Source: Nanobdellota archaeon (lineage in GTDB: Archaea; Nanobdellota; Nanobdellia; Pacearchaeales; GW2011-AR1). From it: 42,633 bases of DNA. A program made the translations under genes and the position numbers. Below, piece by piece: positions 23,240 through 28,717 of the stretch. The notes under the pieces were generated by a model. That model ran no database searches, had not been told where the DNA came from, and worked only from the letters and a program-made list of their open reading frames with translations. Location: NCBI GenBank assembly GCA_018816335.1, contig JAHIVP010000007.1, forward strand, positions 1-42,633, given 5' to 3'. Within the stretch, counting starts at the first letter, position 1, and every line of letters begins with the position of its first letter.

Positions 23240-23812
23240 TTAGTAGTTTTCACACAATACCTCGTAGTAAGATTGAGGGTGATTACAAGCTGGACAAACA
23301 TCAGGGGCCTCTTCTCCTTGGTGAACATATCCACAGTTTCTACATTTCCATTTAACTGATTTATCTTTCTTGAAAACTGTTGAATTTTCTATGTTTTCTA
23401 GCAGTTTTCTGTATCTTTTTTCATGTTGTTCTTCTACTTCTGCTATTTCTTTGAATGATTCTGCAACATCTTTGAAACCTTCTTTTTCAGCTGTTTTTTC
23501 AAAATCTGGATAAATTGTTCCGTATTCTGCTTTTTCTCCGTCAGCTGATGCTAATAAATTCTCTACAGTTGAGCCTATTTTTCCTGCTGGATATGTGGCT
23601 GTTATTTCTAAATCATGACCTTCTAAATATTTAAAGAAAATTTTAGCATGTTCTTTTTCATTATCAGCTGTTTCTAGAAATATTGCTGCTATTTGTTCAT
23701 ATCCTTCTGCTTTTGCTGCAGATGCAAAGTATGTGTATCTGTTTCTTGCTTGGGATTCTCCTGCAAATGCTTTTAGAAGGTTTTTTTCTGTTTCACTTCC
23801 TTTTAATTCCAT
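23240..23812 (-). CDS. rbr: Rubrerythrin
   Basis: AFAGESQARNRYTYFA, ETADNEKEHAKIFF, C-terminal rubredoxin-like CRNCGYVHQG...CPACNHP. Confidence 0.95.
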   Translation of the reverse strand: MELKGSETEKNLLKAFAGESQARNRYTYFASAAKAEGYEQIAAIFLETADNEKEHAKIFFKYLEGHDLEITATYPAGKIGSTVENLLASADGEKAEYGTIYPDFEKTAEKEGFKDVAESFKEIAEVEEQHEKRYRKLLENIENSTVFKKDKSVKWKCRNCGYVHQGEEAPDVCPACNHPQSYYEVLCENY

Positions 23813-23987
23813 TATTATAATTGGGATTTTGAGTTTTTATATTTTCGGGTGTGAATTTTAGAATTTAAAGTATAATTAGAAGCATTTAAAAGGGATGTAT
23901 TTTTCCTATATATAACAGAAATTTTAACTATTTGTGATTAATTTTTAACAAATTTGTTAGAGTTTCTGAATTAAATACGGAGTAAAA

Positions 23988-24257
23988 ATGAAAGGAATAG
24001 TAAAGTTTTTCAGTCAAGAAAAGGAATTTGGATTCATAGCTGCAGATGACGGAAAAGAAGTTTTTGTTCATAAGTCAGCGCTAGATGATGGTGTAACTAT
24101 AGATAAGGATGATAAAGTTACATTTGATGTTGAAGAAGGCGATAGAGGACCAAAAGCTGTTAATGTGAAGAAAGAAGGATCAGCTGAAGCAGAAGATGAA
24201 GAAGAAGATGAAGAAGAAGCAGAAGAAGAAGAAACTGAAATGAAAGAAGCAGCTTAG
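23988..24257 (+). CDS. Cold-shock domain protein with acidic tail
   Basis: GIVKFFSQEKEFGFIAADDGKEVFVHKSAL CSD motif; Glu/Asp-rich C-terminus. Confidence 0.92.
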   Translation: MKGIVKFFSQEKEFGFIAADDGKEVFVHKSALDDGVTIDKDDKVTFDVEEGDRGPKAVNVKKEGSAEAEDEEEDEEEAEEEETEMKEAA

Positions 24258-26170: not shown

Positions 26171-26479
26171 ATGAAAACCAAAACTGTTAAAGATAAAAAT
26201 TATTTTGAGTCTAATGAAATAGCGAGAAGTCCGACTTTGCAGACTGTGCTGATGGTTGAAAAATTTATTGATGATAATTCTGGAGAATATAAGAAAACTG
26301 AACTGTTTAATAAACTACCAAAGAAAGTAATGTGGCAGACTTTTCAGGTTATTATGGAATATCTTGAAAGCATAAATAAAATTGCTTATGATAATGAAGG
26401 TTATGTTGTTTATATTTGGAGCCCTGAACTTTATGAGAAATATAAAGATAGAAAAGATTTAGAATGGAATCCAGAATAA
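26171..26479 (+). CDS. Winged-helix-like protein, putative antitoxin
   Basis: 102 aa; overlaps the downstream toxin-like gene by 16 nt. Confidence 0.6.
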   Translation: MKTKTVKDKNYFESNEIARSPTLQTVLMVEKFIDDNSGEYKKTELFNKLPKKVMWQTFQVIMEYLESINKIAYDNEGYVVYIWSPELYEKYKDRKDLEWNPE

Positions 26480-26784
26480 TATTTGTTGACGAAAAATTGA
26501 AACAAGCATTTGCAGAACTTTCAGATAGAAATAAAAGACTTCATAAAGAAATTGAAAAGGCACTAAACAAAATCAAATTCAATATTTTTTGTGGCAGAAA
26601 TATTAAAAAGAACTTAATTCCTAAAATATTAAAACAAAAATATGATGTTGATAATTTATGGGTTTATAATCTTAGTAAAGATTGGAGACTTCTTTATTCA
26701 GTTGCAGATAATGAAATAGAAGTTTTAGCAGTGGTTTTGGATTGGATGGATCATAAAGATTATGATAGGTTGTTTGGGTTTTAG
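26464..26784 (+). CDS. RelE/YoeB-like toxin
   Basis: LWVYNLSKDWRLLYSVADNEIEVLAVVLDWMDHKDYDRLFGF. Confidence 0.7.
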   Translation: MESRIIFVDEKLKQAFAELSDRNKRLHKEIEKALNKIKFNIFCGRNIKKNLIPKILKQKYDVDNLWVYNLSKDWRLLYSVADNEIEVLAVVLDWMDHKDYDRLFGF

Positions 26785-27334: not shown

Positions 27335-28717
27335 ATGGAAAAGATATTCAACCCAAAGAGTGTGGCTGTGATAGGAGCGTCACATGAAAAAGAAAAAGTT
27401 GGTAGATTAATATATGATAATTTAATTGGGAATTCTAAACTGAAGATTTATCCTGTGAATGTTAAGGGAGGGAAGATAAATGGGGAGAGAGTTTATTCTA
27501 GTGTTTCTGAAATTGAAGATGAGGTTGATGTTGGGATTATTGTTGTTCCTGCTAAAGTTGTTCCTGTTGTTTTAGAAGAAGTTGGAGAAAAAGGAATTAA
27601 AAATGCTGTTATAGTGTCGGCGGGGTTTGGGGAGGTGGGAAATAAAAAACTAGAAGAAGAATTAGAGAGAGTTGCTGAGAAATATGGGATAAAAATTGTT
27701 GGGCCTAATTGCATGGGAGTTATTAATCCTTATTCAGAAATGAATGCTAGTTTTTTTAAGAAAATTCCTCCTAAAGGAAAAGTAGCTTTTTTATCTCAGA
27801 GTGGAGCAATAGGAAGTTCAATTTTAGATAAAGATATTTCTTTGAGTGGGTTTGTTAGTTTAGGAAATATGTTAAATTCTGGTTTTGATGATTGGATTGA
27901 TTATTTTTCTAAAGATGATAATACAAATACTTTGATGTTATATATTGAAGATGTTAAGGATGGGGAAAAGTTTTTTGAATCTGTTAAAAAGTGTGATAAG
28001 AATATTGTTGCTTTGAAATCTGGGAAAAGTTTGAAAGGAATGGAGGCTGCGAAGTCTCATACAGCTGCTTTAGCTTCTGATTATAATGTTTACAAAGGTA
28101 TTTTTGAACAGTTGGGAATTGTTGAGGTTGATAATATATATGATTTAACTAGAGCTGCTAGGGTTTTGTCTATTCATCCAAACTTAACAGGAAAGAAAGC
28201 TTGTATTGTTGGAAATGCTGGAGGTTTAGGAGTTTTAGCTTCTGATTATGCTGAAAAGTATAAAATTGATTTGCCTAATTTGCCTGAAGATGTTAAGAAA
28301 AAATTAAATGAGGTTATGCCAAAACAGTGGAGTAAACATAATCCAATTGATATTATTGGAGATGCTAAGGCTGAGAGATACATGAAAGCTATGGAAGTAT
28401 TGGACTTAAACGGTTGTCTTCAAAATTCTTCTAAGAAGAATTTTGGACAATCAGAATTCAAGACTGCGCCTACGCGCAGAGATGGAGGAGAAAATTCTGA
28501 TTGGTTTGATTTTTTTATTATTATTTTGACTCCTCAGCAAATGACTCAACCTATGGAAACAGCAAAGGTTATTTCCAAATTAAAGAAACCTGTTTTTGCT
28601 GTTTATAGTGGGGGAGAGGGGTTGGGAGATAGTGTTGATTATTTGAGAAAAAAAGATGTGGTTGTTTTTTCTGAACTTGAGAATTTGTTTAGGGTCCTTG
28701 GGAGGATTGTGAGATGA
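27335..28717 (+). CDS. ADP-forming acetate/acyl-CoA synthetase alpha-type subunit (CoA-binding/ligase domains) with an in-frame palindromic insertion
   Basis: SVAVIGASHEKEKVGRLIYDNL, IVGPNCMGVINP, FLSQSGAIGSSILD, KSHTAALASDY, IVGNAGGLGVLASDYAE. Confidence 0.92.
   Translation: MEKIFNPKSVAVIGASHEKEKVGRLIYDNLIGNSKLKIYPVNVKGGKINGERVYSSVSEIEDEVDVGIIVVPAKVVPVVLEEVGEKGIKNAVIVSAGFGEVGNKKLEEELERVAEKYGIKIVGPNCMGVINPYSEMNASFFKKIPPKGKVAFLSQSGAIGSSILDKDISLSGFVSLGNMLNSGFDDWIDYFSKDDNTNTLMLYIEDVKDGEKFFESVKKCDKNIVALKSGKSLKGMEAAKSHTAALASDYNVYKGIFEQLGIVEVDNIYDLTRAARVLSIHPNLTGKKACIVGNAGGLGVLASDYAEKYKIDLPNLPEDVKKKLNEVMPKQWSKHNPIDIIGDAKAERYMKAMEVLDLNGCLQNSSKKNFGQSEFKTAPTRRDGGENSDWFDFFIIILTPQQMTQPMETAKVISKLKKPVFAVYSGGEGLGDSVDYLRKKDVVVFSELENLFRVLGRIVR
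28421..28503. repeat. In-frame palindromic element in the acyl-CoA synthetase gene
   Basis: 25-bp palindrome CAAAATTCTTCT-A-AGAAGAATTTTG plus 11-bp inverted repeat CAATCAGAATT/AATTCTGATTG enclosing CTGCGC/GCGCAG. Confidence 0.75.

Follow-up and report, generated by a model that had tools for sequence, protein, structure and literature searches.

Rickettsia palindromic elements (RPEs) and their Wolbachia counterparts are palindromic repeats of 100-150 bp that occur between genes and in frame within unrelated conserved genes; they are restricted to their lineages, and what moves them is unknown (PMC3767692, PMC2229807, PMC10969869). Coding palindromic repeats have also been reported in an archaeon, Methanocaldococcus jannaschii (Suyama, Lathe and Bork 2005, as cited in PMC2229807). 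In-frame selfish palindromes have so far been associated mainly with the Rickettsiales, with this one early archaeal report. The hairpins of REP/BIME and IS200/IS605-type elements, which are moved by Y1 transposases, are imperfect, keep conserved unpaired bases, and are found both dispersed and in arrays. REPs are extragenic and 20-40 bp long (PMC3733652). Fungal and sponge mitochondria contain double-hairpin or repetitive hairpin-forming elements with complementary substitutions in their arms and with tandem and in-gene copies (PMC2800124).

Here we describe what is very probably a non-autonomous double-hairpin DNA element that has multiplied in three genera of archaea and whose in-frame inserts would be translated as protein loops. 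A search of the open-access literature found no description of the element in Pacearchaeota or Nanoarchaeota.

The insert in an acyl-CoA synthetase gene

The window, a stretch of 42,633 nucleotides from a Nanobdellota archaeon, carries a gene for an ADP-forming acyl-CoA synthetase (27341-28717, + strand, 458 aa) with a CoA-binding part followed by a succinyl-CoA-ligase-like part (Pfam CoA_binding_2 and Succ_CoA_lig). The initial annotation had noticed extra in-frame residues in this protein relative to its family and placed an insertion at 28409-28509. The insertion exists, with limits a few bases off: as set from orthologs and sister copies, it spans about 28406-28501 on the + strand (96 bp, 32 codons, residues 356-387, ends within about 6 nt), and it matches the covariance models R2 and R3 described below. 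The reading frame is open across the whole palindromic region. The insert is absent from 10 of 10 orthologs, all from other genera, which are about 29 residues shorter between the AMEVLD end of a helix and the strand FFIIILTPQ. The nine orthologs in alignment A3 are 37-47% identical to the window protein. Two overlapping small ORFs elsewhere in the window (26171-26784) resemble, by eye, an antitoxin and a RelE/ParE-like toxin.

The palindromes reported earlier were recovered exactly. A 25-bp palindrome at 28421-28445 (CAAAATTCTTC-TAA-GAAGAATTTTG, two 11-bp arms and a 3-nt loop) forms the upper part of hairpin A, which extends over 28414-28450 (+ strand) as TTGTC-(bulged TT)-CAAAATTCTTC-TAA-GAAGAATTTTG-GACAA. 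The 11-bp inverted repeat CAATCAGAATT (28448-28458) and AATTCTGATTG (28493-28503), whose arms are exact reverse complements, is the outer stem of hairpin B (+ strand), supported by covariation; the first bases of its 5' arm may close hairpin A instead. Enclosed by this repeat is the conserved core hairpin (28464-28479, + strand), CTGCGC-CTAC-GCGCAG, with its arms at 28464-28469 and 28474-28479 and AAGA directly 5'. RNA folding adds a possible closing stem, P1, in which TTAAAC (28406-28411, + strand) pairs with GTTTGA (28504-28509) and so forms a three-way junction. A third stem closes some other copies in this way (e.g., C29:10484), and that of the window copy is not conserved in every copy of the element.

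Folding of the 96-nt insert as DNA is far more stable than that of dinucleotide shuffles (z = -5.9 on the + strand, -7.1 on the - strand), and none of 200 shuffles folded as well. As RNA, the insert region (116 nt) gives z = -3.5. The AlphaFold2 model of the protein has a mean pLDDT of 86 and a single segment below 50, residues 358-385. The insert is thus predicted to be a disordered loop, and the only disordered segment of the enzyme.

Copies of the element and its paired architecture

The insert proved neither unique in its genome (G000) nor conserved in orthologs, the two outcomes that the initial annotation had named as refuting its RPE reading. The genome has about 24 copies; twelve lie in ORFs, and of these 11 share one reading frame. 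A DNA search found nine further places besides the window insert, a pattern search for the core hairpin found about 17 copies (and zero control matches), and model R2 gave 23 matches. The full-length model R3, comprising hairpin A plus B, gave about 24 matches in G000, 22 in G008 and 19 in G022 at E<=0.001, where the E-values are rough and weak matches are possibly generic double hairpins. R2 and R3 were built from hand-made alignments and used in place of R1, a covariance model from an automatic alignment that caught only four pairs.

Exact sequence identity around copies identifies G022 as archaeon BMS3Abin17, classed as Pacearchaeota (PMC11537232), and G008 as Nanoarchaeota isolate UBA9966. 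Together the carriers span three genera within a single archaeal family. When 180 genomes of this family (87 genera) were scanned, matches were confined to the genome of the window, BMS3Abin17 and UBA9966; a second scan, which covered 378 genomes of the class and partly overlapped with the first, gave matches only in the genome of the window and BMS3Abin17. The viral contigs searched held no copy. The exact core pattern was otherwise found, among genome contigs, in the two other carriers and in one Nitrospirae contig; the latter match, without the stem of the element, is likely due to chance.

The settings of the copies vary. UBA9966 has tandem arrays (C1:6999-7171, C16:65602-65985 and C11:80707-80833) and no confirmed in-gene copy. 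In the genome of the window one copy (L038, C28:9392) lies between two tRNA genes with its end adjoining the second, and others precede the starts of genes for a histone (C4:5766), DnaG (C13:1588), L40e (C45:20178) and RNase P protein (C40:29523); a copy in BMS3Abin17 (C44:28986) precedes an S12-like start (all five names by sequence reading).

Two hairpins make up the element: A, which carries an unpaired T, is followed by B with the core AAGA-CTGCGC-CTWC-GCGCAG. The usual in-gene copy can be written AAC-NCT-(stem A)-NNN-(stem A')-GGN-CCACAAAATC-YAAGA-CTGCGC-CTWC-GCGCAG-N10-GATTTTG-NNGG. The unpaired T is kept in most sister copies, and the window copy has TT at this position. Several UTR copies have the hairpins in the order B-A. 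No consistent inverted repeats are formed by the ends of the element.

Both stems covary strongly. When 18 copies are aligned by hand according to their structure, 97.9% of the cells are paired, with 27 double-sided changes and no G-U; for hairpins A and B together, 96.2% are paired and there are 30 double-sided changes versus three one-sided (G-U) ones. Since G-U intermediates are nearly absent, what is kept would seem to be the DNA palindrome with its complementary arms, and not an RNA fold alone. The pattern also bears on the idea that the family is mainly a structured RNA, a 5'-UTR regulatory or protein-binding element with the in-gene copies as by-products. Such an RNA could account for the conserved core loop, for the several copies that immediately precede the start codons of genes for DnaG, a histone, an S12-like protein and the RNase P protein, and for the mostly sense orientation of copies between co-oriented genes. 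Against it, the covariation hardly passes through G-U pairs, the family matches nothing in Rfam, its downstream genes are unrelated to each other, and some intergenic copies, mostly in UBA9966, are antisense or lie between divergent genes. We consider this explanation improbable. Copies upstream of start codons may affect translation initiation.

Insertions inside genes

Twenty in-gene insertions were identified in 19 genes of two genomes, that of the window and BMS3Abin17, and many of these genes are essential. The hosts in the former encode the acyl-CoA synthetase, LeuRS, MetRS, IleRS, Cbf5, RtcB, an R15P-isomerase/eIF2B-like protein, a methyltransferase, a DNA alkylation repair protein, a CYTH-like protein, a PMT-like membrane protein and a small ORF. 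In BMS3Abin17 they are TRM5/TYW2, GatD, archease, rpS2, chorismate mutase, a glycosyltransferase and an FmrO-like methyltransferase with two copies. Names come from Pfam or PDB matches, except that IleRS combines a Pfam class I synthetase match with sequence reading and the CYTH-like protein, for which Pfam gave no match, was named by sequence reading.

The inserts are 63-135 bp long, mostly 81-90 bp. All 20 are multiples of three, in sense orientation and free of stops. The same frame of the element is used by 19 of the 20, a count to be taken as a pointer, given the common descent of the copies and their detection through an open frame. Of the 19, 12 are open in frame +1 as well, and most have at least one open antisense frame; avoidance of stops is therefore insufficient by itself to account for the use of one frame. 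It could reflect selection for loops that are hydrophilic and tolerated, or biased insertion. Changes among in-gene copies fall on the three codon positions 69, 46 and 64 times. With no third-position excess, the insert peptide is not visibly under selection.

The IleRS insert is composite, an 81-bp canonical element with a 54-bp element nested in its core loop. The nested 54 bp form an A-plus-B double hairpin of their own, and the reading frame is unbroken, both lengths being multiples of three. A similar composite occurs in two intergenic copies.

Because all of the inserts found keep the frame, RNA-level removal or ribosome bypassing is unlikely. Stable hairpins within conserved enzymes might be taken out before or during protein synthesis, as a bulge-helix-bulge archaeal intron or as a hairpin skipped by the ribosome in the manner of Magnusiomyces mitochondria, and ribosome-skipped inserts are indeed known elsewhere (PMC5009743). 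Neither a length in multiples of three without stops (20 of 20) nor a common frame (19 of 20) would be required of an insert that is removed, and the bypassed inserts of Magnusiomyces disrupt frames (PMC5009743), unlike those described here. The in-gene count is biased by detection through open frames; even so, none of the 13 intergenic copies inspected, a part of the total, was seen to split a gene, and the downstream genes that could be recognised each have a start of their own. Removal or skipping thus appears very unlikely, and we infer that the host proteins are made with the loop present.

Empty sites are found in other hosts as well. Cbf5 in 12 of 12 relatives, both other carriers included, has an empty site at which the flanking matches abut, and the Cbf5 of the window's genome has about 26 extra residues there. 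PDB homologs of Cbf5, LeuRS, RtcB and R15P isomerase are without the inserted stretch, a comparison that excludes GatD, whose insert precedes the part aligned to its PDB homolog. These empty sites, and the near-identical DNA in unrelated genes, make it hardly credible that the inserts are ancestral protein loops merely resembling palindromes, with no mobile element involved, even though every insert sits at a loop-tolerant place.

Proposed movement of the element and comparison with known systems

A mobile double-hairpin DNA element best accounts for the dispersed copies, empty sites, in-frame placement, stem covariation and nesting that can be read from the sequences. The element would insert both into intergenic DNA and into genes. 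Within genes, only inserts that keep the frame would survive, i.e., those that are 3n bp long, in sense orientation, with a stop-free frame and at a loop-tolerant place. Transcription and translation of such an insert would add a hydrophilic loop of roughly 21-45 residues to the protein. Comparison with relatives in other genera argues for movement, and copies may move as DNA that folds into hairpins and is acted on by an activity supplied in trans. It is possible, if doubtful, that the element is adapted to genes: it has a hydrophilic, stop-free 3n sense frame, enters essential enzymes and nests in itself, and it may favour the coding strand or a codon phase.

Candidate movers were sought in the carriers, whose drafts are 82-92% complete, so that a mover may have been missed. 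A Y1 transposase was found in BMS3Abin17 and in neither the genome of the window nor UBA9966 (drafts 82-84% complete); as it was not found in two of three draft carriers, it is a doubtful candidate for the common mover. Reverse transcriptase was rejected, with none found in UBA9966 and the sole one in the genome of the window reading as part of a diversity-generating retroelement. At that locus (L146, C45) the reverse transcriptase (23376-24038, ORF of 349 aa) adjoins a 281-aa protein whose end reads as a C-type-lectin-like variable region, and the locus is likely a retroelement of this type.

A target-site duplication gave no signal (mean longest direct repeat 5.1 versus 4.8 in mispaired controls). 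With neither this nor consistent terminal inverted repeats, the element was rejected as a MITE. One UTR copy (L020, C4:5766 in the genome of the window) is flanked by a direct repeat of about 17 bp, GAAAGGAGGAAATTTAA, that includes a Shine-Dalgarno-like motif; no such long repeat was seen around other copies.

In-frame insertions in these reduced archaeal genomes number at least 20 and affect aminoacyl-tRNA synthetases, Cbf5, RtcB, GatD, a ribosomal protein and further hosts, which suggests that in-frame palindrome behaviour arose independently in these archaea. The family is a natural experiment on the acquisition of new protein loops. Both other carriers are public genomes, and the mode of movement is therefore open to study through the sequencing of close relatives.

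The mitochondrial elements have in common with this one the double hairpins, compensating arm changes, and tandem and in-gene copies; those reside in organelle genomes. We know of no systematic in-frame translation of them. REP/BIME and IS200/IS605-type hairpins are likewise imperfect, with conserved unpaired bases, and likewise dispersed and arrayed. The present element differs from REPs in having in-gene copies, and a Y1 transposase was found in one of three carriers.

The initial annotation held that an archaeal counterpart of RPEs would be notable. An RPE-like element is present, and the earlier case of M. jannaschii (Suyama 2005, cited in PMC2229807) takes away its priority. The repeats of M. 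jannaschii are also archaeal, palindromic and in some instances inside protein genes. The two differ in phylum and in the 20 in-gene cases found here. The study of Suyama, Lathe and Bork is said to have only three in-gene cases.

The match to RPEs holds up as a likeness of behaviour: copies are dispersed and in frame in genes, and orthologs are empty. Both are dispersed foldable repeats, this one, at mostly 81-96 bp, slightly shorter than 100-150 bp, and both insert repeatedly in one frame into existing ORFs that stay intact, with orthologs outside the lineage empty. In contrast to RPEs, the archaeal element combines two neighbouring hairpins, has a bulged T and a conserved core, measures mostly 81-90 bp within genes, nests in frame, and has an archaeal host.
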